Positions 7,961-28,388 of a stretch of DNA of 64,000 nt are shown here, one piece after another. The notes under the pieces were generated by a model. That model was not told the DNA's origin, ran no database searches, and saw nothing but the letters and a program-made list of their open reading frames with translations. Each line of letters opens with the position of its first letter. The stretch's first letter is position 1. Source of the DNA: Leptobacterium flavescens (GTDB taxonomy: Bacteria; Bacteroidota; Bacteroidia; Flavobacteriales; Flavobacteriaceae); contig NZ_JAABOO010000002.1 in NCBI RefSeq assembly GCF_010671605.1, forward strand, positions 434,001 to 498,000, given 5' to 3'. The position numbers and the translations under genes are program-made.

Positions 7961-10900
7961 TTATAATTTAAGGATTCGCTTGTCGATCACATTAGATCGG
8001 TCGTCTGTGATTCTCAGGATATAAATATCGCGTCTCAGAGAAGACAAGTTTAACGGGATTCTGTTCTTTCCTCTTACTATCTGGGCCTGAACTTCCTTCA
8101 CCAGGTATCCATATCTGCTATATACGGAAATATTTACGTTGGCATCCGCTCTGGCGCTAAGGAATACATTTGTATAGTTTCGAACCGGATTCGGGAATAC
8201 TTTCGCAAAGTTCACTACCGGAGGTTCAATACCATTATCCTCACAGGAACCAAGTACCGCACCGTGCTGTAAGAAGATCCATGCTGCGTATTTAGACACA
8301 CAAAGGGTTCTTCCGTTAAAGCAAAGCGTTACTTTAGGGTTGTACGGATTGTTTCCGCAGCTGATATCAACTGCTTCTACCGTTACTTCTTTGGTAAACG
8401 AGCATCCGTTAGCGTCTGTTACCGTAACCGTATATATTGCAGTTTCTGTCGGGCATACTTCAATACTCTGAGTGGTCTCACCCGTACTCCATTCAAATGA
8501 ATAATCGGGAGTACCACCTGTAATATCAGATACTTCGAGGGTTGTACATCCGGGACCATAACCGATAAATACCGTTTGATCCTCTGTCAGGTTAAATGCA
8601 AGTGTCTCAGGCTCGGTAATGGTAACTTCTGCTTCCACAGTCGCATCCAAAGCATCTGTAACCGTAACCGTATAAGTTCCGGGTGCAAGATCTGCAATAG
8701 AAGCAGTGGTTTCTCCATTACTCCACAGGTACTCATAAGGAGCAATCCCCCCGCTTACCGTAACCGAAGCCGTTCCGTCATTAGCGCCATTACAGCTGAC
8801 ATTCAGGCTTTCGATATTTACCAGTTCCAGTTCTCTTAACTGTAATCTTATAGAGACCGGAATATGATCTGAAGTGGTAAAGGCATAGTCATTATCAAAG
8901 AACTCAAAATGCGCAGTGGCAGAACCAATGATAAGATTATCGTCCAGTTCATTAGAGATCGTAATATGATCGATCATATTATCGCTGAAAACAAAGGACC
9001 TGAAGCCCTGCTCGCTTAAAACTGCTGTAGCTATCGTATAGTTTACGGGATCGTCGATATATACCTGATATGAAGATTCGGTTGTATTTACATCAGCAAC
9101 AGTAACATCCACATCATCGTTATAATCTCCCGCAATAATAAAGTTACGGTCGGAGAAGTTCACATCCAGGCTGTCTTTCAACAGCTCCACATCAAACCTT
9201 CTCATATCATATCTCGACTGAGGTCCGTTACTGCTGTTTGCTCTTGCGTGCAACGCAATCACATCTATCTGCTCGGTTTCACCGTTGATGGTCACATCCG
9301 CAGTCATTAAGAATGGAAGTCGGCCGCTGGCATAGAACCTGTTTGTCGCATCAGGATATCCTGCCAGGGCAGAATCGTCCCCTCCGTTATATAAAGGGTG
9401 GATAGAAGTAAACATAGCTCTCGTAGATACCGGAGATACGGTAGCTGTCCTATAAATAAAACCTACACGTTGTGCTCCGGAAGCTCCGGGACCTCCTGAA
9501 ACTGCATCCGAAAGGATATAATCAAATTCTTCCAGTCCGTTTACCAGTTCGGTAAACAATGCTACGTCTGTAATTTCCTGAACGGCAATAATATCTGCAT
9601 CCAGCCCTCTGAGCACTGTACTAACACTGTCTCTCTGGATAGCATCTGAATTCGGGTTCCCCGCTGCCGGAGAGTTTCCTTCGTCTCCGAACCATTCTAT
9701 ATTCCAGGTTACCACATCCAGGGTTTGTTCTTTAGGAATATTGGCCGTATCACCTCCGGGAACGAATTCCTCGGCACAAGGAAGATCGGTATCTGTTCTG
9801 GGTAATAACTGGAAAATTTCGTTGAATCTTCCAATCACCCCGATGATCTCGCTACAATTTTCAGGTTGTGCAAGGCCAACTAAACTTGCAACATCATTAT
9901 CTATTCTAAGTTCTCCGGTTCCGCTTGCATCTGTTAATTGATAATTCGAATTTCCGAATAAAAGATTACCCGGATTCGGGAAGGTAGTGTTTACTACTCT
10001 AACCAGCTCTCCCGGATGTTGCCCGAGCTCACTGAGTGTTATGGTAACAGGTTCTATTGGATTGTTAGGTAGTCCGTTATTTACCACGGTAGAAACATCT
10101 CCTATCTGTATCTGATTGTTGAAACTTTCGCGTATTCCGGTAACAGTAATCGAATCTCCTACCTGGAAAACCCCGTCTCCGTGAACCAGGCCGTCAAAAA
10201 CGGCAATTCCTCCGGTTGCATCCTGAATATAGGCCGGTCCTGAGAAATTATCCGAAACGGTAAGTACACCACTAACGGTAACTACATTTCCGTCGGGCGT
10301 GTTTCTGGCTTCTGCAATCGTAATAGGTTCTCCCGGTTCTACTATCACACCTTCATTGGAAACACCAGGGGTAGGATTCTGTTGTATGTAAGAGGCCGTA
10401 TTCCTTGCTCCACCCGATCCGTTAGGGATACGTTGAAGGGAATGCGCATCCTTATCGCCAAGTTCATCTTCATTAAGCTGAGCCTGACCTGCATTGAGCA
10501 ATACTAAAAGTCCGGCATCATCGCTGTCATTGGTGTCGTATACTATAGCATCTATCAGATTATCTGTAGTTACCGCTGTTCCGTTAGGGAAACTGGTCGC
10601 ATCACCTGTATAAAGGGCAACGGCATCGGCTCCGTTCTGGAAACTGTTATTTGGAACCACCAGGTTTACATTGGCAACTCCCACATTTCCGATAACAAAA
10701 TATCCTTCTGCATTGGTAGAGAACCCATCCAGATCGAAAGCGTTATAACTGGTATCTCCGTTTCCGTTATAAGCCACCAGAACAAATCCGTCCAATGGTG
10801 TATTTCCGGTTCCGCCATCATAGATCTCAACAAATTCCAAAGCATCACTTCCGGCCGTATCTGCATCCAGCTCATTGATGATAAGATCTATAGGTTCTGT

Positions 10901-12598
10901 AGCACTTGTGTTGGCACTACCCGGTGTTGGTACCGCCTGAACATAAGTGTCGGTATTTCTAAGGTCTCCTGATCCGTTGGCAAAACGCTGAGATGAATGC
11001 TCTGCATTATTTCCCTGTCCGCCTTCGTTTACCTGAGGTTGCCCTGCATTGAGTAAAACCAGAAGAGCTGCATCATCACTATCGTTGGTATCATATACAA
11101 TAGCATCTATAAGGTTATCTGTAGTGATCGGAGTATCATTCGGGAAGTCGGTGGCATCTCCTGTGTAAAGTGCTACTGCATCGGCTCCGTTCTGAAGGCC
11201 GTTGCTCCCGAAAACCAATGATACATTCGGTACATCGGTATTTCCCAATACAAAATATCCCTGTGCATTTGTAGAAAATCCGTCCAGGTCAAAAGCATTG
11301 TAACTGGCATCATCACTACCATTATAAAGAACCACAACAAGTCCATCTAAAGAAGTGTTACCCACACCTCCGTCATACAGTTCAATAAACTCCATAGTAT
11401 CTGTCCCGGGGGTATCTGCATCAACCTCGTTGATAAGTACAGTGGCCGGAACCACTACATTTGCTATTTCATTTTCTGCATTCGGAGTATTAAGAGCTTC
11501 TCCGTTATCTGCAACGGCTGCAGGAAAGCTTGGTAATCCCTGACCGTCAAAATCGTTTCTTACCCAATCGGAAGCTGCATCCGTATCCGATCCGTTAGGG
11601 ATCCTGGAAGCACCACCTACTGTCTGGGTTCCTCCGTCAAAAGACTGTGTAAGAGTTACCGTGGCATAGTTGATATCAGATGCACCTCCATCATTAACCC
11701 CTATATCATCGATAAGTGTGTCCCAGGGAGTTGTATCGAATGTTCCGTCATCGTCTGCATCCAGGTCAGTTCCGGCAGTTCCGGTAAAATTCTCTACCAG
11801 TAAAAGGGAAACCGTTCCGTTCTCAAAGGTGTTTGCTCCAAAGGGAATGGTAAAGTATCCTTCGGAATTCGTCGTTCCCAGTTGAATAACTTCATCTATA
11901 GTACCGGAGGCGTTGCTGTCTCCTTCTATCTCTAAAATCCAGAAATTGCTTAAATCGGTATCCGGTAGAGCGATGATCTCTACAAATTCATCGGAATCTG
12001 ATCCGGTATGGTTAAAAACAAATTCGTTGATCAATGGTGTGGAAGAAGGTGCTGAGAAGGTCTGCCCAGCATTTACGGTTCCGTAAGTACTGGCAACTTC
12101 TGCCTGCCAGCTAAAGTCTGTAAACTCACTTCCTGTCCCGGTAAGCTGGATAGAATTTCCTACCGGCGTACCACTGGTTTCGGAAACACCTATATCCGTA
12201 CTGCTCATTCCTGAAGCCGGTCCGTTTGCTGCGGTAATGCTTCCTTCATAACTTAAAAACTGAATTACAATTCCGTTGTTATCAACCAGAGCAAGTCCAT
12301 CAGGCGCCCCGTTCTGTAATCCGTTAGAGGGAAGTACCTCTACCAAAGTACCAAAACCGTTCTGCTGGTTTGTCAGTACCCCCGAAAGATTAATAGTATT
12401 GTAAACACTGCTGTTAGAGCCGTTGTAAAGCGCAAGGCTCCATCCTGTCAGATCTGTTCCGGCAGGTCCCGCTATTTCAATAGCTTCATCCACATCGGTC
12501 CCGGCATTGTCATAATGGATCTCATTTATGAAAACCGATTGGGAAAAGGAAAATGATGCCATGAAAAGCACCAGTAAAAAAAGTAACTTTCTTTTCAT
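7961..12598 (-). CDS. Secreted lamin-tail-domain / endonuclease-phosphatase-fold protein, T9SS substrate
   Basis: This 1545-residue exported protein begins with a signal peptide (MKRKLLFLLVLFMASFSFSQ). Four lamin-tail-like domains fill about 20-750; the third and fourth (about 385-565 and 570-750) are near duplicates. An OB-like/DUF5689 segment follows (about 760-900), then an endonuclease/exonuclease/phosphatase domain (about 915-1220) with WNIEWFG, VQEI, AGDYND, DHI and SDHIPV. One full SprB-like repeat and a partial one follow (about 1225-1370), and a T9SS sorting domain (FPNPVRNY to the end KRILKL). The likely role is an extracellular or surface nuclease that takes phosphate or DNA. It has its own terminator. 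Confidence 0.9.
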   Translation of the reverse strand: MKRKLLFLLVLFMASFSFSQSVFINEIHYDNAGTDVDEAIEIAGPAGTDLTGWSLALYNGSNSSVYNTINLSGVLTNQQNGFGTLVEVLPSNGLQNGAPDGLALVDNNGIVIQFLSYEGSITAANGPASGMSSTDIGVSETSGTPVGNSIQLTGTGSEFTDFSWQAEVASTYGTVNAGQTFSAPSSTPLINEFVFNHTGSDSDEFVEIIALPDTDLSNFWILEIEGDSNASGTIDEVIQLGTTNSEGYFTIPFGANTFENGTVSLLLVENFTGTAGTDLDADDDGTFDTTPWDTLIDDIGVNDGGASDINYATVTLTQSFDGGTQTVGGASRIPNGSDTDAASDWVRNDFDGQGLPSFPAAVADNGEALNTPNAENEIANVVVPATVLINEVDADTPGTDTMEFIELYDGGVGNTSLDGLVVVLYNGSDDASYNAFDLDGFSTNAQGYFVLGNTDVPNVSLVFGSNGLQNGADAVALYTGDATDFPNDTPITTDNLIDAIVYDTNDSDDAALLVLLNAGQPQVNEGGQGNNAEHSSQRFANGSGDLRNTDTYVQAVPTPGSANTSATEPIDLIINELDADTAGSDALEFVEIYDGGTGNTPLDGFVLVAYNGNGDTSYNAFDLDGFSTNAEGYFVIGNVGVANVNLVVPNNSFQNGADAVALYTGDATSFPNGTAVTTDNLIDAIVYDTNDSDDAGLLVLLNAGQAQLNEDELGDKDAHSLQRIPNGSGGARNTASYIQQNPTPGVSNEGVIVEPGEPITIAEARNTPDGNVVTVSGVLTVSDNFSGPAYIQDATGGIAVFDGLVHGDGVFQVGDSITVTGIRESFNNQIQIGDVSTVVNNGLPNNPIEPVTITLSELGQHPGELVRVVNTTFPNPGNLLFGNSNYQLTDASGTGELRIDNDVASLVGLAQPENCSEIIGVIGRFNEIFQLLPRTDTDLPCAEEFVPGGDTANIPKEQTLDVVTWNIEWFGDEGNSPAAGNPNSDAIQRDSVSTVLRGLDADIIAVQEITDVALFTELVNGLEEFDYILSDAVSGGPGASGAQRVGFIYRTATVSPVSTRAMFTSIHPLYNGGDDSALAGYPDATNRFYASGRLPFLMTADVTINGETEQIDVIALHARANSSNGPQSRYDMRRFDVELLKDSLDVNFSDRNFIIAGDYNDDVDVTVADVNTTESSYQVYIDDPVNYTIATAVLSEQGFRSFVFSDNMIDHITISNELDDNLIIGSATAHFEFFDNDYAFTTSDHIPVSIRLQLRELELVNIESLNVSCNGANDGTASVTVSGGIAPYEYLWSNGETTASIADLAPGTYTVTVTDALDATVEAEVTITEPETLAFNLTEDQTVFIGYGPGCTTLEVSDITGGTPDYSFEWSTGETTQSIEVCPTETAIYTVTVTDANGCSFTKEVTVEAVDISCGNNPYNPKVTLCFNGRTLCVSKYAAWIFLQHGAVLGSCEDNGIEPPVVNFAKVFPNPVRNYTNVFLSARADANVNISVYSRYGYLVKEVQAQIVRGKNRIPLNLSSLRRDIYILRITDDRSNVIDKRILKL

Positions 12599-13074: not shown

Positions 13075-15582
13075 TTATTTCCCAGCCTCAAAAATCGCAT
13101 CAATACGGGCTATACAATCCTCATAATGATACCTTGTAACCGTATGCGTAGTGCGGTTTTTTGCAGCGTTTAAACGAGATCTCAATTGCTTGAGTTCTCC
13201 CCTTACCAGGGCTCTGACGTCTGATTGATTCACATTATAGCTCAAAGTTCCTTCAAATCCCGGACGACCTCCTCTTCTTACCGGAGGGTTCTGCTCCATC
13301 ATAGATTTCATTCTGTCGATATAGGCTCTTTGCAGATTTCTTCTGAACAGATCTACTTTAGAAGACGATCTCAATTCAGACCACAGGCCGTTACGCAAAT
13401 CACGTAACATACTTAGGGCACTGTAGTAATCAGAATTCAAGGTTTCTGCGTCTATCAGCCTTCCCAGACGGTCAAAGCTCAGGATATTGTTTAATTGTCT
13501 TGTTTGTAATGATCTGAATCTTTCGAAATAACCTGCGTGATCTATATTCTGAAGGATCTCTTTATCTACCAGCCAGCTCGGGGTTTTAAAGGCATTATTC
13601 TGAACCCAATTCATAGATTCTCTCTGAACCGATGCAGGAACGATCTCATAAACGAAACCACCCTGTTCCGGCTTTTTGATATTTTCATATACACCACCGA
13701 TATTGGTCACCACATGGCCTACATATCTGCTCCATACTCCCAGTAACTCTCCGTATAATTCTTCAAGATCCTGATAATTATTCGTCGTCTCAGAGGTCCA
13801 GCTACTAAGGTTCTGCGCCACGTACTTAAGGTTTTTTATTCCGTAGGTACTGGCAATTATCGGGTCGCTTCCTATACATTCTGTCTGTGAGGAAGGATCA
13901 AACCTACTCCCCTGTCTTCCGAACTTAAATTTAGGATCGCCGTTCTTCTCCATGATCCATTTATCAAGCGTAGCAACTTCGCTTTCCGGAGTGTTGGCAT
14001 TCGGGATCACCCTGTATCCCCAGTTAGTGGCATAATGATCGTAAGGCCCCATCTGACGGATAAAGCGGATATTCTGATCACCCGGTTGTGCCACATAGTT
14101 ATAACGGGCATAATCCATGATACTGGCAGCAATCCCGTTTTCCTGTGTAAAGTCACCGGAACGAAGATCCTCAGCTCCATAGGCAAAACTAGCTGCCATA
14201 TTGTGTGGGAAACCAAGGGCGTGTCCTACCTCATGGGCAATTACCATACGCATCATCTCTCCTATCTCTTCATCGGGAGTATTAAGGGTCCTTGCCGAAG
14301 GGTTTGCAGCTCCTGTTTCCAGTAAATATCTGTTTCTGTAAGATCTCAGGTGATTGTGGTACCAGATAATATCACTCTCTATTATTTCTCCGGATCTCGG
14401 ATCTGATACACTGGGCCCTGTTGCATTTCTGGTAGTACTGGCAACATAACGAACCACAGAATAACGTATATCTTCCGGGCTGAATTCAGGATCTTCTTCA
14501 GGAGAAGGCGGGTCTTTAGCAATGATGGCGTTTTTAAAACCTGCGGTTTCAAAAGGCTTCTGCCAGTCCTCTATCCCCTGCTTGATATATTTTCTCAGTT
14601 TTTCCGGTGTTCCCGGATCCAGGTAATATACAATGGGTTTTACCGGTTCTACCAATTCCCCTCTGGCATAAGCCTCCGGATCCTTCGGCTCCAAACGCCA
14701 GCGACGAATATAAGTTTTGTTATCTGCCTTTAAGGCTTCAGATCCGTAATCTATCTGATTTACCGTAAACCATCCAACTCTGGGATCAAAAATACGGGGC
14801 TTCATAGGTTCTTCAGGTAACAGGATCATCGACTGGTTCATCTGTAAACTGATAGACCCTGTAGCAGCATTTGAAGGCGGTGCTTCTGCATTATAGGTAA
14901 AATCCTGTTTTACCTCTATATTCTGTGGAAAACTCTTTACCGAATTGATAAAACTCCTCGAACCGTCCAGATTCCTTACTCTGTACTGCCTTCTGAATCT
15001 TGCAGGTAAGCCGCTGATAGCCTTGATATCTGAAGAATAGAATTTGCTGACATCAATAACTGCAGCCGTAGAATCGGCGTTAAAAGCCTCGATCTTAAAA
15101 GAATAAAGAATGGGCTTGTAGTTATTTACCTTAACGGAATTCGATATGGCCTGAGAATCATCTGCTACGGCGTTATACGATTTAACCTTTAAAAGGATCT
15201 TGTTCTGAAAGCGCTCCCATACAACGATCTGTTCGTTGGTTTTGGAGCCTGCATTCACATATCCTCCACCCAGTCCTGCAGGGATCTGAGCAATTCTACT
15301 TACCAGCAGCATATCCTTATCCAGTAAAGAATGTGGTACCTCAAAGTAGTATTTATCGTTTATTTTATGCGATTTAAAAAGTCCGTCATCAGTAACGGCA
15401 TCTTTGGTAACTACCTGCGAATAAGGTTTAATCCCGTTCTTTTTAGGTTTTGGTTTCGGAGGCGTAACTACCTTCTCGTTCTTGGCCTTCTTCTTGTTCC
15501 TTCTCTGTTTCTGTACTTTTTGCGAATACATGCCGGGAGCGATAAACAACACCGCCAGCATTAATAAAATGAGCCTTTTCAT
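13075..15582 (-). CDS. Exported zinc-dependent metalloprotease (DUF5117/DUF4953 type)
   Basis: This 835-residue protein starts with a signal peptide (MKRLILLMLAVLFIAPGMYSQ) and a basic KQRRNKKKAKN stretch. The central catalytic motif HEVGHALGFPHN (about residues 446-457) is the extended HExxHxxGxxH zinc site of metzincins; Met of the Met-turn is probably in SIMDYARYNY about 35 residues later. N-terminal sequence (DGLFKSHKINDKYYFEVP) and the long C-terminal helical part match the Bacteroidota family annotated with DUF5118, DUF5117 and DUF4953. Substrate unknown. No T9SS sorting domain is visible at the C terminus. Confidence 0.9.
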   Translation of the reverse strand: MKRLILLMLAVLFIAPGMYSQKVQKQRRNKKKAKNEKVVTPPKPKPKKNGIKPYSQVVTKDAVTDDGLFKSHKINDKYYFEVPHSLLDKDMLLVSRIAQIPAGLGGGYVNAGSKTNEQIVVWERFQNKILLKVKSYNAVADDSQAISNSVKVNNYKPILYSFKIEAFNADSTAAVIDVSKFYSSDIKAISGLPARFRRQYRVRNLDGSRSFINSVKSFPQNIEVKQDFTYNAEAPPSNAATGSISLQMNQSMILLPEEPMKPRIFDPRVGWFTVNQIDYGSEALKADNKTYIRRWRLEPKDPEAYARGELVEPVKPIVYYLDPGTPEKLRKYIKQGIEDWQKPFETAGFKNAIIAKDPPSPEEDPEFSPEDIRYSVVRYVASTTRNATGPSVSDPRSGEIIESDIIWYHNHLRSYRNRYLLETGAANPSARTLNTPDEEIGEMMRMVIAHEVGHALGFPHNMAASFAYGAEDLRSGDFTQENGIAASIMDYARYNYVAQPGDQNIRFIRQMGPYDHYATNWGYRVIPNANTPESEVATLDKWIMEKNGDPKFKFGRQGSRFDPSSQTECIGSDPIIASTYGIKNLKYVAQNLSSWTSETTNNYQDLEELYGELLGVWSRYVGHVVTNIGGVYENIKKPEQGGFVYEIVPASVQRESMNWVQNNAFKTPSWLVDKEILQNIDHAGYFERFRSLQTRQLNNILSFDRLGRLIDAETLNSDYYSALSMLRDLRNGLWSELRSSSKVDLFRRNLQRAYIDRMKSMMEQNPPVRRGGRPGFEGTLSYNVNQSDVRALVRGELKQLRSRLNAAKNRTTHTVTRYHYEDCIARIDAIFEAGK

Positions 15583-18465: not shown

Positions 18466-19497
18466 CTAGTCTTCCAGAAAAAGTACACTTATTAAAATGG
18501 CTAAAAAAACGGTGTAAAGCAGCGGAAAAAGCCATCTGAAAATCCGGATAAGCCTTAAAGACATCTTTTTGCTTTTCTTCAGGACCACAGCATTGTTAAA
18601 AATAATGGCCCCCGCAGTAAGGAAGATGGATGTATAACCGGAAATGATAATGATCTCTATAAAAGTGTTATAGGGCAACCTTGGCAATAAGGTAGATGTA
18701 AAGAAATTAAAGGCTACCACAGTCAGCATAAGGGTAAAAGAGATATTCAGCTGATTGGAAAAGTCGTTTACCCAGAATACCAGCCAGGAGGCGATGATGA
18801 TCAGGAATATCGGCAGCAGGACCTGCCAGAAATAATAATTGAATTTCCGCTCGGTAATGATCTCAAAAGTACACCTGGAAAAAACCTTGGGAGTACCGCT
18901 TATACCGTTAAAGTGTTCGTAGGTTATCTTACTGATGGTATCGCGGGTGCCCATGATGGTCCATTCCTTCAGGTAGGTGGCATCGAGTTTCTCGGGTGTT
19001 AGTTCAGCCGAGGTAAATACAAGCTGTTCAATATCTTTGGAAAAGGCTTCTATTTGAAGGTTGAATACCTGTCTGTCTACCGGGTAGAGATGGAAATCCA
19101 TATCTGCAGTGAATTTGGCATGAAAGCGTTCATTGTACATTACTTTCCCTCCCCTGAAAAACTTAAGCTGTTTGTTAAGGATCTCCCTTTTTCCGAGTAC
19201 ATTGATAAACTCGAAGGTCGGGATCGGATAATTGTCGGGGAATTCACTGTTCTCGTAGGTAACCTCAGCTGAATCGGTATCCGGAAACGGATTATCCGGA
19301 TCCTCCCACAAAAGAACCAGATAACCGTCTATCAGATAAGTCTCGTTCATGGAATTGATATCATATATTTTATTGAGGTGGAAAGAAACGGAGATCTCAA
19401 GCGGAGATGTTTCATGAGCGTACCTGCCAAAACACATAAGCGGGAACAAAAGAAGTACATTCCCGATAAAGAACACTATGTCTCTAGGCGTTTTCAT
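18466..19497 (-). CDS. Pentameric ligand-gated ion channel, ELIC-like (Cys-loop receptor homologue)
   Basis: A 343-residue channel subunit with signal peptide (1-24), an extracellular ligand-binding domain (about 33-220) and four membrane helices (M1 about 224-243, M2 249-275, M3 280-302, M4 319-340). The Pro-loop DFHLYPVDRQ (134-143) replaces the eukaryotic Cys-loop. The pore segment SFTLMLTVVAFNFFTSTLLP is almost that of ELIC from Dickeya/Erwinia. ELIC's amine-site residues, by remembered numbering, are kept: Y38 (Y59 here), P74 (P93), E77 (E96), N103 (N122), E131 (E150), F133 (F152), Y175 (Y193), F188 (F206); R91 is Gln110. ELIC is opened by GABA and primary amines. Its start overlaps the glutamate decarboxylase gene by 14 bases. 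Confidence 0.95.
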   Translation of the reverse strand: MKTPRDIVFFIGNVLLLFPLMCFGRYAHETSPLEISVSFHLNKIYDINSMNETYLIDGYLVLLWEDPDNPFPDTDSAEVTYENSEFPDNYPIPTFEFINVLGKREILNKQLKFFRGGKVMYNERFHAKFTADMDFHLYPVDRQVFNLQIEAFSKDIEQLVFTSAELTPEKLDATYLKEWTIMGTRDTISKITYEHFNGISGTPKVFSRCTFEIITERKFNYYFWQVLLPIFLIIIASWLVFWVNDFSNQLNISFTLMLTVVAFNFFTSTLLPRLPYNTFIEIIIISGYTSIFLTAGAIIFNNAVVLKKSKKMSLRLIRIFRWLFPLLYTVFLAILISVLFLED

Positions 19498-20767
19498 TAT
19501 GTTTGGTGTTAGTCAAAAGCTTATAGCAACGCAGCAGGTCTCCGGCGAATTTTTCTATCAGAGCTTCGCTCAGATTTTCCTTTACCACTACCCTGCAAAT
19601 GCGGGTTCCCCCTTCCGGCAACTCATAAACAGGAAGCATCCAGTTTAATCCTCTCATTTTATCTGCCAGAGCATTCAGAGATCCATTTCCTTCTTCCCTT
19701 GTTCTGAAGGCAACCACGGGTAAAACACCCGAATCTACCAGCTGAAAACATTCAGAATCCCGTATCAGGGCTCTGAGATAAGCAGCTTTATCCATATATT
19801 TTCTAAGAACCTTCCTATACCCCTTTTTTCCGAGGGAAAGGAAGTTAAAGTACTGCATCAGGATCATGGAGGAACCTCTGGAAAAATTCAAATTATAAGA
19901 TTCTACGGTACCTCCCAGGTAAGACGACCTGAAGATCAGTTCTTCGGGCAAATAATCTTTTCCCCGGAAGAGAAGCCAGCCTACTCCCGGATATACCAGC
20001 CCGAACTTATGACCGGAAAGGTTAATGCTTCTCAGGAGGGGTAACCGAAAGTCCCATTTTTCGCATTGGAATTCTTCAAGAAAAGGCAGGATAAAACCAC
20101 CTATGGCGGCATCGAGATGGATCCCGATATCCCATCCATTCTCCTGATTCACCTGTTGAAGCAGATCGTTAAGCCGACAAACCTTATCCACATTTCCCGT
20201 ATAAGTATCTCCCAATACGGCTCCGACACAAATCGTGTTTTCATCCAGTAGTTCCCGGATAGCATCGGGATCATAACTGCCGTCCCTGTAAAAGGAAATT
20301 TTACGGGCTTCCACATCAAAGTATTTTGCAAACTTATCCCAGCATATATGCGCATTCTCTCCATATACCAGGTTGGGAGAACTGTCGGGTTTCCCCTCTT
20401 CCCTTCTTCTTTTTTTCCATAACCATTTATGGGCCAGCAATCCCAGGATAACTGCTTCCGAAGAACCGATGGTAGCCGTACCGATACCATGGTCGTCTGC
20501 ATTCAGCAGATCTGAGAGCATACAGATAATACGATCGTGAATTTCTTTGGTCTGAGGGTATTCCGAAAAGTCAATAAAATTCTTCCCCCATTGTCCGGCG
20601 ATCAGCTTTTCGGCATAAGGATGTGCCGTGGTTGTGCTGAAGCTTCCCAGATCGAGGTGAATATTCCCGTCAAGAGCAAGTTCTCTGGTAATTTCGCCGT
20701 AGGCGTCCAGAGGATCCATCCCTCCTTCGGGAAAATTGTATAACGATATTTTATCGGTACTTTTCAT
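19484..20767 (-). CDS. gadB: Glutamate decarboxylase family PLP enzyme
   Basis: A 427-residue group II PLP decarboxylase, closest in pattern to GadB, which turns glutamate into GABA. It has TIGSSEA (PLP phosphate), LDAAIGGF (Asp219), and SGHKFG with the Schiff-base Lys254. The substrate-site residues of GadB are largely kept: T62/F63 is Ser42/Phe43, and D86 is Asp66. GadB's Gln163, stacked on PLP, is His140, as in most other group II decarboxylases. The N-terminal helix and the C-terminal His-containing tail of the E. coli acid-resistance enzyme are missing. Abuts the upstream membrane-protein gene and overlaps the channel gene. GABA is the likely, not proven, product. Confidence 0.9.
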   Translation of the reverse strand: MKSTDKISLYNFPEGGMDPLDAYGEITRELALDGNIHLDLGSFSTTTAHPYAEKLIAGQWGKNFIDFSEYPQTKEIHDRIICMLSDLLNADDHGIGTATIGSSEAVILGLLAHKWLWKKRRREEGKPDSSPNLVYGENAHICWDKFAKYFDVEARKISFYRDGSYDPDAIRELLDENTICVGAVLGDTYTGNVDKVCRLNDLLQQVNQENGWDIGIHLDAAIGGFILPFLEEFQCEKWDFRLPLLRSINLSGHKFGLVYPGVGWLLFRGKDYLPEELIFRSSYLGGTVESYNLNFSRGSSMILMQYFNFLSLGKKGYRKVLRKYMDKAAYLRALIRDSECFQLVDSGVLPVVAFRTREEGNGSLNALADKMRGLNWMLPVYELPEGGTRICRVVVKENLSEALIEKFAGDLLRCYKLLTNTKHNENA

Positions 20768-21610
20768 TTAAATAGCCGCAATTAGAGATTGTACTTTTTC
20801 CATAATGCTCTGAAGGATCCTGTAAACGATTTCCGAGGAGAATCCGCCCAGAATAGCAAAAAGGAGCCGGTTCACTTCTATAGAATCATCCAGTACGACC
20901 TGGTTTACAGAAACCCCTTCAGAAAGAATGATCCCGCTCAGCATCCCCATCAGTAACATTATCCAGTAATAAGTGGAATCTTCAGGAGAGAGGGTAGCAT
21001 CTTTCACTTCCCGGATCAGTTTGGAGAGCAGAAAAAAGGAGGCCCCGGTTACAGAGGCGGAACTCAGGAACAAAAGATTTAGCATAAGTATCTTTCCGTC
21101 ATTCTCCAGTATTCCTTTAGATAATTCAACGGCATTCACTTCAGAACTTAGTCCGGTGACCATCAGGCTTAAAACCGCCAGGATTGCCACGATCATAAAG
21201 TTCCTGACCAACGGAATAGGACTGAAAATATAAAACTTCTTTTTGCTCTCATAGTAACGGGAGATATACATTATAGTCTGTGGTGTTGCTGGTAACAGGG
21301 CATCACATACCATGTTATAAGCCTTTACCAGATCTGAGGTATACTCACTATGGATCAGCTGCCCTACCTCATCCGATATCTTTTTACCGGTATACATGGC
21401 GTAATGGGTAATTGTATGAAGCTCTTCCTTTATTTTAAGGGTCATATCATCCTCAGCTACGGTTTCATTGCTTTCAACCGGGTGGAAAGTGAGCATTTCA
21501 TTTTCTTCCGGCGTTTCTACAGATGGTGCCTGAATATCTTCTCCAGCCGTATTCTCCTCTACCGGAATATCGTATGCTGACCGTTCTTTTATTTTATCGT
21601 AAATATTCAT
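20768..21610 (-). CDS. Unknown membrane protein of the GAD/ion-channel operon
   Basis: A 280-residue protein with an acidic soluble N-terminal part (about 1-125) and four predicted membrane helices (about 135-155, 170-197, 212-233, 245-265). The ATG at 21610 (MNIYDKIKERSAYDI) is preferred over 21685, because the longer frame would run 65 bases into the preceding TolC gene; with 21610 the gap is 10 bases. The stop codon abuts the decarboxylase start codon. I do not recognise the family: no transporter, channel or enzyme signature is visible. Position suggests a partner of the decarboxylase or the channel. Confidence 0.8.
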   Translation of the reverse strand: MNIYDKIKERSAYDIPVEENTAGEDIQAPSVETPEENEMLTFHPVESNETVAEDDMTLKIKEELHTITHYAMYTGKKISDEVGQLIHSEYTSDLVKAYNMVCDALLPATPQTIMYISRYYESKKKFYIFSPIPLVRNFMIVAILAVLSLMVTGLSSEVNAVELSKGILENDGKILMLNLLFLSSASVTGASFFLLSKLIREVKDATLSPEDSTYYWIMLLMGMLSGIILSEGVSVNQVVLDDSIEVNRLLFAILGGFSSEIVYRILQSIMEKVQSLIAAI

Positions 21611-21620
21611 ATCGGTATTT

Positions 21621-22829
21621 TTATAATGTTTCACCCACAAAAAAGTCCAGAAGTTTAGCCGTAAGCACATAATTGTACCTGGCATCTATAGCCCTGAATT
21701 CTGCATTGATCATCCAGTTCCGAGCACTTAAATAATCTGCATTACTTAGCCGGCCGTTTATAAATTGCTGTTCCATTATCAGGAATTCCAGTTTTTGCTT
21801 TTCAAGGGCATCTCTAGCTTCCTTATGTGTTTCCCTGGCATTGTGTAAACTTCTGATAATAAGAGTAACGGCATCCTCTAAATTCCGAAGCAGGTGTTCC
21901 AGCTGTTTCTGGCGCAGTTCCAGTGTTATTTTTGCAATATTGAGCTGTGTTCTTCCTGTACGACCGTTGAAAACCGGAATGTTTACACCAATACCGAAGA
22001 AATTCTGGTAAATCCCTCCGTTGCCGGGATCCCATCCCAAAGTATTTTGATATAACAGACTTACGGTGGGCCACAGATCTATTTCGGAAAGTATTTTATT
22101 TTTTTCAGCGATCAGTACCGCATATTTTGCCTGGTTAATGGTAGGATCTATCGGAATTGAGGCCCGATATACTTCCTCCTGACCTTCATAGGCATTAATA
22201 TAAACGGGAATATCCACTATCTCGAAAGATTGTTCCATATCCAGGTTTATCAGCTGTTTTAACTGCAATAATGCCAGATCTGCATTTCTCCTGGCAGCCT
22301 GAAGATTTAAGCGGTCTTCTGCCTGAAGGGCAGTCATAAAATAATGAGTCTCCTTACCTGTCTTTTCTCCCAGGCGAAGGTTACGTCTGTAATAGTGGTT
22401 AAATACTTCCGCCCTGCGTTTCAGGGTCAATGCATTGATATAAACTCTTAGTGTACCTTCTTCTATGGTATTTTGCGCAAAGGAAATGTTTTCATCTGCC
22501 TGAGAGATCGTATTTTTAATACGTTCTGCCTGATGTCTTCTTCTGTACAGCAATCCCAGGTCCTGAGATAATTGAATTCCCGCCTGGTGGCTATAGGCAT
22601 CTGTAGCGTTATGCTGAAAGCTTAAATTAAAGAAACCGGATACGGAAGGCAAAAATTGCTGGAGGGTCTGTTTTTGCTGCTCTCTGAAACTCTTATTCCA
22701 TATTCTTGCCTCTACCGCTAACTGACTGTGTTTACGGCCGTAGGCAATACAATCTGTGAGTGACCAGCGCTGCTGTGCATTCACAAACAGGCTATTAATC
22801 ATAAAAAGAATAAGGATCCTGTTGAACAT
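21621..22829 (-). CDS. TolC-family outer-membrane factor
   Basis: A 402-residue protein with a signal peptide (MFNRILILFMINSLFVNA) and two TolC/OEP halves. The halves have long heptad-type helices (KQTLQQFLPSVSG, AERIKNTISQADENISFAQ, ARRNADLALLQLKQLINLDM) and the beta-barrel turn FFGIGVNIPVFNGRTGR. Such trimers form the outer-membrane conduit of efflux or type I systems. No adaptor (HlyD) or pump (RND, ABC, MFS) gene is next to it, which is unusual. It is the first gene of the run that continues with the unknown membrane protein, GAD and the channel. Confidence 0.88.
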   Translation of the reverse strand: MFNRILILFMINSLFVNAQQRWSLTDCIAYGRKHSQLAVEARIWNKSFREQQKQTLQQFLPSVSGFFNLSFQHNATDAYSHQAGIQLSQDLGLLYRRRHQAERIKNTISQADENISFAQNTIEEGTLRVYINALTLKRRAEVFNHYYRRNLRLGEKTGKETHYFMTALQAEDRLNLQAARRNADLALLQLKQLINLDMEQSFEIVDIPVYINAYEGQEEVYRASIPIDPTINQAKYAVLIAEKNKILSEIDLWPTVSLLYQNTLGWDPGNGGIYQNFFGIGVNIPVFNGRTGRTQLNIAKITLELRQKQLEHLLRNLEDAVTLIIRSLHNARETHKEARDALEKQKLEFLIMEQQFINGRLSNADYLSARNWMINAEFRAIDARYNYVLTAKLLDFFVGETL

Positions 22830-22939: not shown

Positions 22940-23461
22940 TTATTTTACAGGGAACCTGCCTTTTAGGATCCCCACTATTTTACTTTTTTGTTCTTTTAAG
23001 AATTCATTCGAATTCCCCGACTTTTCAGCATTGGAACAGTAATCAATAAAGGCGTTGATATCTATTCCTAATTCGGCATATAGCCTCACGAGTTCATCCT
23101 TATCGGTAAGGTAGTGTCCCTTATGCGGCTTTATACCGGGATCGGAATAATCGACCACCCTTAGAGGAGAAGAATTGGTCCTCAGGTTCTGCCCGTCATA
23201 TTTAGTACCGGACGGTGCCTTTTCGGCCAGTTTTGCCCCGGTCTCATGTTCCGTATGCCTGTATTCGTGGTCGGTCAGGAAGTATATGTTCCTGCTGCTT
23301 TTCTTAATGACCGCAAATCCGTCGTCATGATAGGGCCTCACTCTTACAAAACAGCCCTCGCTGTCTATAAAGTAAAGACTGGGTATCCCCTTATCTCCAT
23401 CGATACGCCTGGTACCGAATTTTAAATTGCCTGATGATATTACTTCGCTATAATTGCACAT
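22940..23461 (-). CDS. Hypothetical protein of the DUF2589 gene run
   Basis: A 173-residue soluble protein, read from the ATG at 23461 (MCNYSEVISSGNLKFG); the longer frame to 23566 would overlap the zinc-ribbon gene by 86 bases and has a low-complexity basic leader. Motifs that stand out are YFIDSEGCFVRVRPYHDDG, SRNIYFLTDHEYRHTEHE and KGHYLTDKDELVRLYAELGID. The HEYRHTEHE cluster could bind a metal. Family not recognised. Last gene of a six-gene run (25847 down to 22940). Confidence 0.6.
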   Translation of the reverse strand: MCNYSEVISSGNLKFGTRRIDGDKGIPSLYFIDSEGCFVRVRPYHDDGFAVIKKSSRNIYFLTDHEYRHTEHETGAKLAEKAPSGTKYDGQNLRTNSSPLRVVDYSDPGIKPHKGHYLTDKDELVRLYAELGIDINAFIDYCSNAEKSGNSNEFLKEQKSKIVGILKGRFPVK

Positions 23462-23480
23462 AGTTTTATTTTTTTTAGTG

Positions 23481-23684
23481 TTATCTGTAATTTTTACTTC
23501 GGCTGTTTGAGCCTTTTGCCTGCTTCTGATGGGTTTCCCTGTCAAAGCTCTGGTTCCTGTTCTCACCTCTCTTTTTATTGGTGTTCTTCCTGCTGCTGTC
23601 TGAGCAGTTACTGCAGTATTCTACTGCTTCCTTTGGTGCACTCTTCGGAAGGGAAGAGCCACAATTCGGGCATTTTTTCGCCAT
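23481..23684 (-). CDS. Small zinc-ribbon protein
   Basis: A 67-residue protein that starts MAKKCPNCGSSLPKS and has a second CSNC pair at about residues 24-27, giving a CxxC-x(n)-CxxC zinc ribbon in the first 30 residues. The rest is basic, Asn/Ser/Gln-rich and probably disordered. It lies between the second DUF2589 gene and the 173-residue protein. Function unknown; a nucleic-acid or protein adaptor role is possible. Confidence 0.6.
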   Translation of the reverse strand: MAKKCPNCGSSLPKSAPKEAVEYCSNCSDSSRKNTNKKRGENRNQSFDRETHQKQAKGSNSRSKNYR

Positions 23685-23712: not shown

Positions 23713-24168
23713 TTAAACCACACTTTTTACCAGATAATCATTGATCCTTAAGAAAGACTCTGACGGCTCTCCGGATTCGAATGTGATCTCCACATCGGCC
23801 GTAGCCTGATTTTTACCAAAGAATCCCCCACTGCTTCCCATATCTATATCCAGACTTGGTCCTTGTTTACTATCAGCATCCCCAAGTTTGATCTTGCCCA
23901 GACCTGCCTGGAACTTCAACTTGAGTTTCCTGATCTTTATAGCCGAAGGAGGCAGTAAACTCATCAGAGGGACTTTTAAGACTACCATATTATCCGGATC
24001 ATCCTCAGGATCCAGTGTCGGAACCGAGATTTCCTGGGTAATCGGTTTTCCATCTTCATCGAAATACTTATCAAGCTGATGAATATGTTGCTCTTCTGTT
24101 AACTCCTGTGCCCGCAATACCGCATTGTGTATTGCCTGTAGCAAATGGTCAAAACGTTGTTGTGCCAT
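23713..24168 (-). CDS. DUF2589-family protein 2
   Basis: A 151-residue protein with an N-terminal helix (RFDHLLQAIHNAVLRAQELTEE) and the DUF2589 core VVLKVPLMSLLPPSAIKIRKLKLKF (about 80-105), followed by a Gly/Asp-rich strand region (GSSGGFFGKNQATADVEITFES) and a basic-hydrophobic end. The family is of unknown function. A paralogue lies two genes upstream and shares the LKVPLxxLxP core, so the two may form a complex. Confidence 0.75.
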   Translation of the reverse strand: MAQQRFDHLLQAIHNAVLRAQELTEEQHIHQLDKYFDEDGKPITQEISVPTLDPEDDPDNMVVLKVPLMSLLPPSAIKIRKLKLKFQAGLGKIKLGDADSKQGPSLDIDMGSSGGFFGKNQATADVEITFESGEPSESFLRINDYLVKSVV

Positions 24169-24184
24169 GATATATATGTTTTAG

Positions 24185-24469
24185 TTATTTCTGTTCCAAC
24201 CAGTGCGGTTTGCGTTTAAAACCGATATGGTAAGTGGTGATTTCCATGGTGAGCTGATGCTCCCCGATCATATATTGTCCTATACTCACATCCTTTCCCA
24301 GGATAATTCCCTTGGGAAATTGGCTTAGGCATTTATTCAATAAAGCCAACTGTTCTTCATGTTTTTCTTCAGAAAAGGGGGCGTTCGGATTCAGATTCCC
24401 CACGGTCACTTTCTTTACAAAACCGATCTCTGTATAATCCGGCCTGTTCGATTTCTTATTTGGTAACAT
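24185..24469 (-). CDS. Small hypothetical protein between the two DUF2589 genes
   Basis: A 94-residue soluble protein (MLPNKKSNRPDYTEIGFVKK) without recognised domain. It contains EEQLALLNKCLSQFPKGIIL and ends HIGFKRKPHWLEQK. Gaps to both DUF2589 neighbours are 16-25 bases, so it is probably translated from the same mRNA. Function unknown. Confidence 0.65.
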   Translation of the reverse strand: MLPNKKSNRPDYTEIGFVKKVTVGNLNPNAPFSEEKHEEQLALLNKCLSQFPKGIILGKDVSIGQYMIGEHQLTMEITTYHIGFKRKPHWLEQK

Positions 24470-24494
24470 AACAGTTGGCTTTAAGGGTTAATAT

Positions 24495-25190
24495 TTAAGC
24501 TGCCTTCTTTTCAATGGGGTTTCCATCGGCATCAAGAAGTACACCTTCTCCGGTAGGCTTTCCGTCGTCTCCTCTCGGAAGCTCTCCTTTATCATCTGCC
24601 TGATATGCTTTTACCTGACGTGGCTGAGCAGCGTCATGCATAATATCGAGTACCCTGGCAAGACCTTCCGGAATTCCGTGATTGGTTGCCTGAACCTGTA
24701 CGTGATATTTGGCTGATTTATCCGTAGATCTGGTATTCTCTCTGGAAGTGGATACCGATCCGGAAGCCGAAACGCTTACGCTGAAGAATAGGTACTTAGC
24801 CGATCCTGAAGCAGAGAAGCTAGCTTCCTTAGCCGATTTTTCAGTGGTTGAAGTAGCACTTTTAACTTCCATGTCGAAAGTGATATCCACTAAATCTACC
24901 TGAAGGTTAGGTACAGGAACGATAGCGAGGATAGGAACTTTAAGTTTTACCTCTTCTACCGTTGGGTTTCCTTCGGCATCCGTTCCCGGGCGCTCATAGA
25001 GGAAATCCACCATCCTGGCAGGTCCGGGAATTATGTTCCCGTTTCCGTCATCGACCTGTTCAAAACCGATCTCATTAATAAAGCCCGCTGTGGCTTTTGC
25101 CAAATTGACGTTCGACTTTACAGCCGCGGTCAAAGGGGCTCCGATTAGGTCTTCCATGGGAAGTCCCTTGAACTGATTTGCAATGTCCAT
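24495..25190 (-). CDS. DUF2589-family protein 1
   Basis: A 231-residue protein with the DUF2589 core (KLKVPILAIVPVPNLQVDLV at about 86-105) followed by a Ser/Ala-rich stretch (SASGSAKYLFFSVSVSASGS) and an amphipathic end region GIPEGLARVLDIMHDA. The N-terminal part (IANQFKGLPMEDLIGAPLTA) is also family-typical. The C-terminal 40 residues are acidic and Gly/Asp-rich. Members are reported from Bacteroidota and Vibrio-like bacteria without known role. Confidence 0.8.
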   Translation of the reverse strand: MDIANQFKGLPMEDLIGAPLTAAVKSNVNLAKATAGFINEIGFEQVDDGNGNIIPGPARMVDFLYERPGTDAEGNPTVEEVKLKVPILAIVPVPNLQVDLVDITFDMEVKSATSTTEKSAKEASFSASGSAKYLFFSVSVSASGSVSTSRENTRSTDKSAKYHVQVQATNHGIPEGLARVLDIMHDAAQPRQVKAYQADDKGELPRGDDGKPTGEGVLLDADGNPIEKKAA

Positions 25191-25244
25191 AATTAAAAAG
25201 TTTAATAGTTAATAATTAAATTCAGTATTGTTATGTTTCGTTTT

Positions 25245-25847
25245 TTAGCTGTATACCTGAAAATCTCTTTCCTCGAGTAAAGTGTAGGTAAAAGAGTTGC
25301 CATATATTTTACTGGCGCGCCTGCAGATCTCCATAAAAAAGTTAAAGTCCTTTACCCTTTTGAATACGGTACATCCCGCCGACCATTTTTCGACGATATA
25401 GGATTCATTCTGTGCATTGCTCCTGTGAATATTGATCCCGAAAACCCCTTCATAGACCTGTCCGCCCTTGTCAATCCTGTCGTCTCCGGTATTATCTCTC
25501 CACACCTTTACCTTTCCCTTCTGACGGAGGGCTTCGTATTTACCCTGGTGCAAACCGATCTCATAGGCTCCTCTGTACTGCCCGGGAACCAATACTGCAG
25601 TTCCGTTTACATTAAGGGGATTCTCCAGCCAGTATTTCCCGGGATCTGTAGTTACCGGAAATTCAAATATCTGCTGTGCCAGAGACTCATTTCTGTATAT
25701 CAGATAAAGCCAGTCATCAAAAGAATTGGCTATATCGTTATTACTCCTTATTCCTATAATATTTGCGTTATATGGCTGATCTCCGTCAAAGAAGCGATAG
25801 CCCTTATTGTTTAATACCTGCTGTATTTGTTGTCCTGAAAACTTCAT
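25245..25847 (-). CDS. L,D-transpeptidase-like protein of the DUF2589 run
   Basis: A 200-residue protein that has the YkuD-like pair of catalytic motifs: GINIHRSN (His, about residues 137-144) and SAGCTVF (Cys, about 157-163). It has no signal peptide. The central part has VLVPGQYRGAYEIGLHQGKYEAL. YkuD enzymes cross-link peptidoglycan or act on related amide bonds; phage-type murein-active members lack signal peptides too. First gene of the run with the two DUF2589 genes, 54 bases upstream of the first. Confidence 0.65.
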   Translation of the reverse strand: MKFSGQQIQQVLNNKGYRFFDGDQPYNANIIGIRSNNDIANSFDDWLYLIYRNESLAQQIFEFPVTTDPGKYWLENPLNVNGTAVLVPGQYRGAYEIGLHQGKYEALRQKGKVKVWRDNTGDDRIDKGGQVYEGVFGINIHRSNAQNESYIVEKWSAGCTVFKRVKDFNFFMEICRRASKIYGNSFTYTLLEERDFQVYS

Positions 25848-26190: not shown

Positions 26191-26595
26191 ATGGAAACTT
26201 CTACTATTCTAATCATCCCCAAGCGCATCAAAAAAAATGTTCCCTTTAGTGAGATCAGACATCAATTCGGTCCCTTTGTCAGGGTTGTAAACCAGAATGG
26301 AATGTGGCACATCAATGCCATGGTGTATTACAATTCGGAGTTCAGCGCATTCGGCCAGACCATGAGAGATACTCCTTTTATGTATGATAATCTGTTGCCA
26401 CTTCAAAGCGTTACGATAGCTCCGTCCGGCCCGAGGATCCCGCATGATGATGATGCGACCTTTACCCTTTGGCAGTTTGTATTTAGGATAGAGAAAGATC
26501 CCTATTGCTGCGGCCTCTATTTTATGGCTGATCTTATGATGCATATGGACGAGCCCACGCGGGGAACAGTAGTAATGGGTGAATCTCCTACATGA
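26191..26595 (+). CDS. Hypothetical protein preceding a TPR-histidine kinase
   Basis: A 134-residue soluble protein (METSTILIIPKRIKKNVPFS) with a Met- and aromatic-rich body (GMWHINAMVYYNSEFSAFGQ, PYCCGLYFMADLMMHMDEP). No signal peptide, no family recognised. Its stop codon overlaps the start of the kinase gene by 4 bases (ATGA), so the two are translationally coupled and it could modulate the kinase. It lies directly downstream of the 21-base-spaced direct repeat. Confidence 0.65.
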   Translation: METSTILIIPKRIKKNVPFSEIRHQFGPFVRVVNQNGMWHINAMVYYNSEFSAFGQTMRDTPFMYDNLLPLQSVTIAPSGPRIPHDDDATFTLWQFVFRIEKDPYCCGLYFMADLMMHMDEPTRGTVVMGESPT

Positions 26596-28388
26596 TGAAA
26601 AGGCTATGTTGTGCCTTTTTAACCGGTTTCCTCTTTTTTTCCGGATATATGGAGGCACAGAAGTCGGGAAGGAAATTCATGATAAAAGAGGATATCTATG
26701 AATACTGTGTTCTCTGTAATCGCGGAGATACACATACTGAACTTATCTCGAATAAAAAGAGCAAAGAAGTTGATTTTCACAACAGCCATGTCTTGTTTTT
26801 CGAAGAAAATTATCCGGAAGCACAAAAGCTCCTGATCTCTCTGTTGGATCCGGAGTCAAACCGGGCAGAAGCCTTTTTTGTGAATTATATGCTGGGCGAT
26901 ATTTACAAAAGCAGTTCTCTGCCTGCTAAAAGTATTGATGCCTTTAAGAGTTCACTGGCATCCGGGCATCCGGTTTCCGATTCATTAAAAAACCGGATCA
27001 TTTTAGCTATCGGTCACCTGCAGTTTAAACAAAAGAAGCTCCGGGAAGCTCTGGAGTCCTATGAAATGGTTGAGAATAGCCCGTCTGTTGCTTCCGATCT
27101 ATCTCTTCAGAAAGCATTGTACAACAATAAAGCTTTACTGTTCCTGTATGATAAGAAATACACCGACGCAGAGGCATATCACTTTAAGGAAATAGCGATC
27201 GATAAGGAACTGAAAGACACCGTAAGCCTGGCTATCTCCTATATGAACCTGGGGAATCTGTATTACGAGCAATACCTGGACGATAAAGCTATCCCACTGT
27301 TTAAAAAGAGCCTGGAACTGGCAAAAACCACCGATAATCTTGAACTGAAGCAAAACAGCTTCCTGAATATGGCTGTTGTGTCTGAAGATGCCAGGGATTA
27401 TCCGAATGCATTGTTTTACAGGAAAAATTATGAGAGGCTGAAGGATAGTATTTACAACCGTGATAAAGTATGGGAACTGGCGGAGCAGGAAAAACAGTTT
27501 GCTATCAGTAAAAAGCAGGATGAATTAGACCTTCAGAAAGCAGATCTCAAAATAAGCCGCTTGCAAAGCAATATCTTTTTAGGCTTTGCGATCGTCTTTC
27601 TCGGCCTCGGATTTGCCGCGTTTATGGCCTATCGGTACAGGATCAGGAAAAATCGCCTTATCGACACGCAACGCAGGGAGCTTGCCGATCTGAACAAAAT
27701 GAAAGACCGTCTCTTCTCCATAGTAGCACACGATCTGAGATCGCCGGTTTACTCAATGAAAGAAATGAACCTGCGATTTGAAAACGCCTTTAAATTGGGT
27801 GATAAATCGGCTATGAGTAATCTGATACAGTCCAAAAAGAAAATAACCGATGATGTTTATCGTCTGCTGGACAATCTCCTGCACTGGGCGCTTCAACAGA
27901 CAAAACAGCTTCATTTTAAAAAGGAAAAACTACATCTCAGATCCATTATACGGCAGATTGCATTCGATTTTAATGAAATAGCAGAACAAAAAGGGATAAG
28001 TATCGATATTAAGATCCCCGGGAACCTCTTTGTACATGCAGATACCAACTCGCTTAAGATCGCTATACGGAACCTTCTGGACAATGCCATCAAATTCACT
28101 CCGGTTAACGGATGGGTAAAGATCAAAAGCACTCAGTTTAAGGAAGGTGATTGCAGGATCATTATTGAAGACAGTGGAATGGGTATAGACAGCCTCGCTT
28201 TAAAGCAAATACGGGAAATGAAAGAAGGTTACCGTCAGCAGGACACTTCCGGAAAGACCAGTACCGGGATCGGCTTGTGGCTAAGCAGAGTAATGATCGA
28301 GAAGAACAACGGCAAACTGAACATCAGAAGCAAAAAAGGAATGGGAACCAGGGTAACCATAGAATTGAGCAATTCAACAAATACTTAA
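26592..28388 (+). CDS. TPR-repeat sensor histidine kinase
   Basis: A 598-residue membrane sensor kinase. N-terminal signal/anchor segment, then six or more TPR units (about 70-310; for example NLGNLYYEQYLDDKAIPLFKK-type repeats) expected in the periplasm, a membrane helix (FLGFAIVFLGLGFAAFMAY, about 332-350), a coiled linker, a HisKA box with the phospho-acceptor His380 in FSIVAHDLRSP, and a HATPase_c domain with N, G1 (DSGMGID) and G2 (TGIGLWL) boxes. One base separates it from the LytTR regulator gene, its partner. Such TPR kinases are common in Bacteroidota. Confidence 0.93.
   Translation: MMKRLCCAFLTGFLFFSGYMEAQKSGRKFMIKEDIYEYCVLCNRGDTHTELISNKKSKEVDFHNSHVLFFEENYPEAQKLLISLLDPESNRAEAFFVNYMLGDIYKSSSLPAKSIDAFKSSLASGHPVSDSLKNRIILAIGHLQFKQKKLREALESYEMVENSPSVASDLSLQKALYNNKALLFLYDKKYTDAEAYHFKEIAIDKELKDTVSLAISYMNLGNLYYEQYLDDKAIPLFKKSLELAKTTDNLELKQNSFLNMAVVSEDARDYPNALFYRKNYERLKDSIYNRDKVWELAEQEKQFAISKKQDELDLQKADLKISRLQSNIFLGFAIVFLGLGFAAFMAYRYRIRKNRLIDTQRRELADLNKMKDRLFSIVAHDLRSPVYSMKEMNLRFENAFKLGDKSAMSNLIQSKKKITDDVYRLLDNLLHWALQQTKQLHFKKEKLHLRSIIRQIAFDFNEIAEQKGISIDIKIPGNLFVHADTNSLKIAIRNLLDNAIKFTPVNGWVKIKSTQFKEGDCRIIIEDSGMGIDSLALKQIREMKEGYRQQDTSGKTSTGIGLWLSRVMIEKNNGKLNIRSKKGMGTRVTIELSNSTNT

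Follow-up and report, generated by a model that had tools for sequence, protein, structure and literature searches.

In a 64,000-nucleotide stretch of the Leptobacterium flavescens genome, here called the window, the gene for an ELIC-type pentameric ligand-gated ion channel (pLGIC) overlaps a gene for a PLP-dependent enzyme of the glutamate decarboxylase (GAD) family, raising the question of whether the enzyme makes the ligand of the channel. ELIC is opened by primary amines, GABA included (PMC3119659), in agreement with the premise of a sequence-only reading of this locus, which proposed that the pair forms a bacterial autocrine amine circuit.

The channel gene (positions 18466–19497, minus strand) encodes a protein of 343 residues with a signal-like hydrophobic N-terminus, a ligand-binding domain and four transmembrane (TM) helices (M1–M4), which appear as hydrophobic peaks past residue 218, M1 being split in two. 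The protein passes the Pfam cut-off of 26 for Neur_chan_LBD (PF02931) with 42.9 bits, and its top PDB matches are those of ELIC from Dickeya dadantii (Erwinia chrysanthemi), with an E value of about 1e-70 and 42% identity. Among the solved pLGICs it is nearer to ELIC (about 240 bits) than to the next natural channel (103 bits), and it belongs to the same clade. The Pro-loop motif is kept, with Asp-134, Phe-135, Pro-139 and Asp-141 corresponding to D115, F116, P120 and D122 of ELIC, and the M2 pore helix is SFTLMLTVVAFNFFTSTLLP (residues 253–272). These features bear out the earlier identification of an ELIC-type channel at this place.

The decarboxylase gene (19484–20767, minus strand) encodes 427 residues and overlaps the channel gene by 14 bases, exactly as first read. 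Its product scores 478.5 bits against the NCBIfam glutamate decarboxylase model TIGR01788, well over the curated equivalog cut-off of 380.4, so that its assignment as a GadB-like enzyme holds. The best PDB matches are Arabidopsis-type GAD1 (3HBX), another GAD (5GP4) and E. coli GadB, and the equivalents of GadB Lys276, Asp86, Asn83, Phe63 and Arg422 are retained. Unlike bacterial GadB, the window enzyme carries a T62S change, together with Q163H and S246I, which are present in all nine channel-linked GADs aligned, whereas the E. coli and plant enzymes have Gln163 and Ser246. In the tree, whose root is not fixed, the free GADs (E. coli, Arabidopsis and three from Flavobacterium) are split from the channel-linked GADs with a support of 100/100, and the channel-linked branch is always found with a channel in this sample. 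The window GAD is the sole enzyme over the GAD cut-off in a sample of 198 Bacteroidota genomes. Since Q163H and S246I are fixed in the channel-linked GADs, glutamate is the likely but not certain substrate, and another acidic amino acid could be the substrate of these enzymes. The earlier statement that the product would be GABA is therefore sustained as to the enzyme family and weakened as to its certainty.

Classical bacterial GADs serve acid resistance (PMC12961736), and GLIC and some other relatives of ELIC are proton-gated (PMC3119659). These observations lead to the alternative that the pair serves the homeostasis of ions and of acid or cytosolic pH, with the decarboxylase using protons and the channel balancing charge or sensing acid stress, so that amine signalling would be incidental. 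The C-terminal His465 tail, however, which is responsible for the acid shut-off of Gad enzymes (PMC12961736) and makes GadB acid-specific, is missing from all nine channel-linked GADs aligned, whereas the free Flavobacterium GADs retain a C-terminal tail ending in His. A search of the window genome for the antiporter GadC (TIGR00910), which detected the E. coli positive control, gave no match, and the four other PF00282 enzymes encoded in this genome all stay below the GAD cut-off, making classical acid resistance unlikely. A classical GadB–GadC role was accordingly rejected, both the tail and GadC being missing, and we consider the broader homeostatic explanation distinctly unlikely. A search of the same genome for GABA transaminase gave none over the cut-off, general class-III aminotransferases being the only matches.

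If the enzyme and the channel act together, their genes would be expected to stay together in other genomes. A scan of GTDB contigs with a single protein returned no relatives, but an ELIC–window alignment, when used to scan 84,980 species genomes, did find 12 ELIC-clade loci; with one more from a Flavobacterium survey (L120, genome G987) and the window itself, 14 loci are available from Flavobacterium, other Flavobacteriaceae, Vibrio and Dickeya, which span two phyla. A PF00282 decarboxylase gene lies upstream on the same strand in all 14, and is directly adjacent in 13. The exception is L017, in which three T9SS-type genes for a lectin, a PorP/SprF protein and an OmpA protein (L017 3717–9964) separate the GAD from the channel; the three families of this insert recur at L140, a DUF2589 locus without a channel. 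In contrast, none of 20 control pLGIC loci of Bacteroidota outside the ELIC clade (L046–L064 and L121) has a decarboxylase nearby, in a stretch of about 8 kb on each side for most loci and shorter for L063 and L121, with a search profile that does pick up other PF00282 subfamilies. The difference between 14/14 and 0/20 gives a Fisher p of about 7e-10, a value computed over related loci that are not independent rows. The decarboxylase–channel linkage is thus far beyond chance, and the adjacency first seen in this one genome is conserved in its relatives. Consistently, among 219 Flavobacterium genomes an ELIC-type channel is present in two and a GAD over the cut-off in four, and in both channel-bearing genomes the GAD and channel genes are adjacent (p about 2.5e-4); the other two GAD genomes have long free-standing enzymes. 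The channel is absent from 59 other near relatives of the window genome, indicating that the module is sporadic. Viral contigs and plasmids yielded no relatives, so that neither collection hints at carriage by phages or plasmids.

The loci fall into three architectures. In group A, comprising the window and five Flavobacterium loci, genes for a TolC-like outer-membrane efflux protein (OEP) and a membrane protein precede those for the GAD and the channel, in this order, with an additional gene ahead of the GAD in three loci. Group B (Flavivirga, RhTr2 and an uncultured member of the Flavobacteriaceae) has GAD, channel, a PDC/Cache-like protein of 460 residues and an MFS transporter. Group C (Vibrio and Dickeya) has a different decarboxylase, followed by the channel, a sensor-like protein of the group B type and an MFS transporter. 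Group B therefore has its decarboxylase class in common with group A and its downstream genes in common with group C, and profiles trained on one group alone still detect the homology of the sensor and MFS proteins in B and C. A membrane protein is encoded ahead of both the Flavobacterium-type and the Flavivirga-type GADs, but despite their common position the two show no detectable homology to each other. The 460-residue protein, which has a weak PDC/Cache match and always lies between the channel and the MFS gene (L012 11093–12487; L014 10915–12321), could be an amine or amino-acid sensor; a single search of the window genome for the Flavivirga-type protein, run without a positive control, did not find it. 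In the Flavivirga module the MFS gene is directly followed by L012 13690–14715, whose product has weak MCP-signal-like similarity.

The class of the decarboxylase is thus exchanged between groups while the channel, sensor and MFS genes stay. The channel-linked enzymes of Dickeya undicola (L016 5993–7363) and Vibrio (L014 8487–9995) give 27–29 bits or no match against TIGR01788, compared with its cut-off of 380. Their nearest solved relative, which is not that of the window enzyme, is L-methionine decarboxylase 7CIF (E 8e-64 for Dickeya and 4e-68 for Vibrio), followed by serine and histidine decarboxylases in the PDB. Since the partner is GAD-like in Bacteroidota and not in Vibrio and Dickeya, the conserved element is a decarboxylase and not GABA as such. 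These methionine-type partners are not acid-resistance GADs, a further point against the homeostatic explanation. Methionine decarboxylation yields 3-methylthiopropylamine, which we predict to be an alkylamine of the type that ELIC prefers to GABA. Among the ELIC agonists, aminopropane has an EC50 of 0.446 mM and GABA one of 2.4 mM (PMC3119659). The idea of a maker beside its receptor was already proposed for ELIC in 2011, when Zimmermann and Dutzler reported an annotated glutamate decarboxylase beside the ELIC gene and proposed GABA as the natural ligand (PMC3119659). Comparison with the close relative D. undicola, rather than D. dadantii itself, suggests that the published annotation is a misnomer. 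The enzyme beside ELIC being apparently no glutamate decarboxylase, the natural ligand of ELIC may be something other than GABA. Within the Bacteroidota, Asp86 is kept in the window and Flavobacterium enzymes and is Asn in three group B enzymes. Asp86 of GadB binds the gamma-carboxylate of the substrate, and in another Gad the replacement of the equivalent Asp by Asn broadened the substrate range (PMC12961736), so that glutamate is less sure as the substrate of the group B enzymes than of the window enzyme.

The amine pocket of ELIC is largely retained in the window channel. The principal-side residues E77, E131, F133, Y175 and F188 correspond to Glu-96, Glu-150, Phe-152, Tyr-193 and Phe-206, and Y38, N103, V40 and I79 are also matched in the alignment on ELIC. 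The pocket residues listed by the sequence-only reading (Y59, P93, E96, N122, E150, F152, Y193 and F206) align as claimed. That reading gave R91, which is Gln110 in the window channel, as the only change, and in this it was incomplete: F19 is replaced by His40, and in the pore the intermediate-ring glutamate E229 is replaced by Asn248. F19 is a complementary-side residue of the binding site, and its substitution by Ala in ELIC raises the EC50 for cysteamine above 10 mM (PMC3119659). The R91A substitution increases the apparent affinity of ELIC, with an EC50 for cysteamine of 0.087 mM compared with 0.365 mM (PMC3119659), and hence Gln110 is no argument against an amine ligand. As a result of Asn248, the acidic residue of cation-selective pLGICs is absent at this position. 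The four Flavobacterium relatives checked likewise have Asn there, the Flavivirga type has Asp, and the Vibrio and Dickeya channels have Glu; E229A in ELIC lets in small anions and weakens cation selectivity (PMC3119659).

Across the clade, eight of the 11 ELIC amine-pocket positions are invariant, compared with 42 of the 190 positions of the extracellular domain (hypergeometric p about 3e-4), and this near-invariance also speaks against acid or pH homeostasis as the main function. The three varying positions are F19 and R91, both on the complementary side, and F188, which changes to Tyr only. The nearest channels without a decarboxylase (L046 and L047) lack both E77 and E131, although most other outgroup channels do retain acidic residues at these positions. 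A fixed amine-binding side and a variable tail-binding side would fit amines with differing tails.

The pair lies at the end of a longer conserved putative operon, which also contains genes for an endolysin-like protein, two DUF2589 proteins, a TolC-like protein and a membrane protein, all on the minus strand. No base separates the decarboxylase start codon from the stop codon of the preceding gene (20768–21610), which encodes a predicted inner-membrane protein of 280 residues with three predicted TM helices; it has no Pfam or PDB match and occupies the same position in five Flavobacterium loci with 27–33% identity. The TolC-like OEP gene (21621–22829; 402 residues; PF02321, 97 bits; weak TolC matches in the PDB), whose position is kept in the same number of Flavobacterium loci, ends about 11 bases before it, if the conserved Met at 21610 is the start. 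From these abutting starts and stops, the OEP, membrane protein, GAD and channel genes look like one transcript; a scan for the Bacteroidota promoter pattern found nothing. Further upstream lie an open reading frame of 208 residues (22940–23566), which has no family and no homologue at related loci and is present in this island copy only, a DUF2589 protein of 151 residues (23713–24168; PF11655; 77–79% identity in Flavobacterium loci and 31% in Vibrio L014), a conserved protein of 94 residues (24185–24469; 57–64% and 45%, respectively), a second DUF2589 protein of 231 residues (24495–25190; PF11655, 135 bits; about 70% and 47%) and the endolysin-like protein of 200 residues (25245–25847; PHROG 33083 endolysin and PHROG 3000; 64–68% in Flavobacterium and RhTr2 loci), which is the first of the conserved run. 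The run of the endolysin-like, two DUF2589 and 94-residue proteins (window 23713–25847) is found at L008–L014, L017 and L120, being partial in Vibrio. AlphaFold models of the 280-residue membrane protein and DUF2589 have low confidence (mean pLDDT 58 and 57, respectively).

Beyond the run, on the plus strand, are genes for a divergent TPR sensor histidine kinase (26592–28388; PF02518 and TPR; family F5), whose family recurs beside DUF2589 loci, and for a LytTR response regulator (28390–29139; PF04397 and PF00072; family F9), which is likely to be its partner; two-component systems of varying type flank most of the DUF2589 loci examined. On the other side of the channel, the window contains genes for a secreted protein of 1545 residues with lamin-tail, SprB, endonuclease/phosphatase-like and T9SS sorting domains (7961–12598) and for a DUF5117/DUF5118 Met-zincin metalloprotease of 835 residues (13075–15582).

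The four conserved upstream genes keep their order in the Flavobacterium loci with 57–79% identity, above that of the GAD and the channel (about 52%), and DUF2589 genes adjoin channel loci in Flavivirga, RhTr2, the uncultured relative and, across phyla, Vibrio sp. S9_S30. The pair might therefore be cargo of a DUF2589/endolysin-like island with an envelope, lysis or conflict role, in which the channel depolarises the cell on a trigger that the decarboxylase supplies or protects against; the shared gene order in five Flavobacterium loci and the higher identity of the DUF2589 and endolysin-like proteins (64–79%) would agree with this. On the other hand, no DUF2589 gene accompanies the pair within the stretch covered in Dickeya and the remaining Vibrio loci, a comparison of the island with PADLOC families gave no match, and DUF2589 is found in eight of the 219 Flavobacterium genomes, six of which lack the channel, the other two being both channel carriers. 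We therefore regard the cargo explanation as very improbable. The wider island (endolysin-like, DUF2589 and TolC-like proteins) may nevertheless have a role unrelated to amines.

The translational linkage of channel and enzyme, its conservation in related genomes and the conserved amine pocket, all of them borne out here, make it fairly probable, together with the exchange of the decarboxylase class, that the product of the enzyme, or a close relative of it, is the native ligand of the channel, and for the narrower claim that GABA itself is this ligand the balance is even. The GAD-family decarboxylase in the cytosol would produce a primary amine, here most probably GABA. The channel would span the inner membrane and expose its binding domain to the periplasm, where arriving amine would open it and allow ions to flow; the opening may signal a change of membrane potential or ion content. 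Such a circuit requires amine export, the part of the proposal that fared less well, as the search for GadC was negative and no GABA exporter was identified in the window operon. In Flavivirga, Vibrio and Dickeya the amine might leave the cell through the MFS transporter encoded at the locus, and in the window genome possibly through the TolC-like and membrane proteins. The weak action of GABA on ELIC and the presence of His40 at the F19 position also count against this reading.

There is also the possibility that the channel detects amines of plant, algal or animal origin in the environment, while the decarboxylase makes another amine or degrades a related amino acid as the response. That ELIC answers many primary amines (PMC3119659), that the distribution is sporadic as for a niche-specific sensor, and that a predicted PDC/Cache-like sensor protein is encoded at the Flavivirga, Vibrio and Dickeya loci are all consistent with it. 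The overlap of the two genes and the strict co-occurrence with a decarboxylase despite the change of its class fit sensing of the product more directly, and we consider environmental sensing unlikely.

Other bacterial pLGICs are paired with PBP, Cache or MCP-N partners (Tasneem et al. 2004; PMC549065), and the present pair is like them in that the channel shares an operon or fusion with a ligand-handling protein. The difference is that those partners would bind the ligand, whereas the partner in the window would make it. The cross-phylum conservation, the decarboxylase swap, the GAD subfamily and the island appear to be new, as they were not found in the limited set of open-access papers searched.

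ELIC is a standard structural model for the human GABA, glycine and acetylcholine receptors. Should the gene beside such a channel reveal its natural ligand, the identity of that ligand would become testable species by species, and the window, in which a real GAD-family enzyme adjoins a GABA-receptor-like channel, is the cleanest case. A further proposal, which we hold to be doubtful, is that of a self-contained transmitter–receptor system for fast electrical signalling, cell to cell or autocrine, in which every operon would encode both the synthesis of an amine and an ionotropic receptor for that amine. Since the decarboxylase is exchangeable, different bacteria would signal with different amines; if so, Bacteroidota would use GABA or a GABA-like acidic amine, and Vibrio and Dickeya an alkylamine, methionine-derived or similar. 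The finding would be relevant to the question of whether bacteria have amine signalling by an enzyme and a receptor of this channel family.
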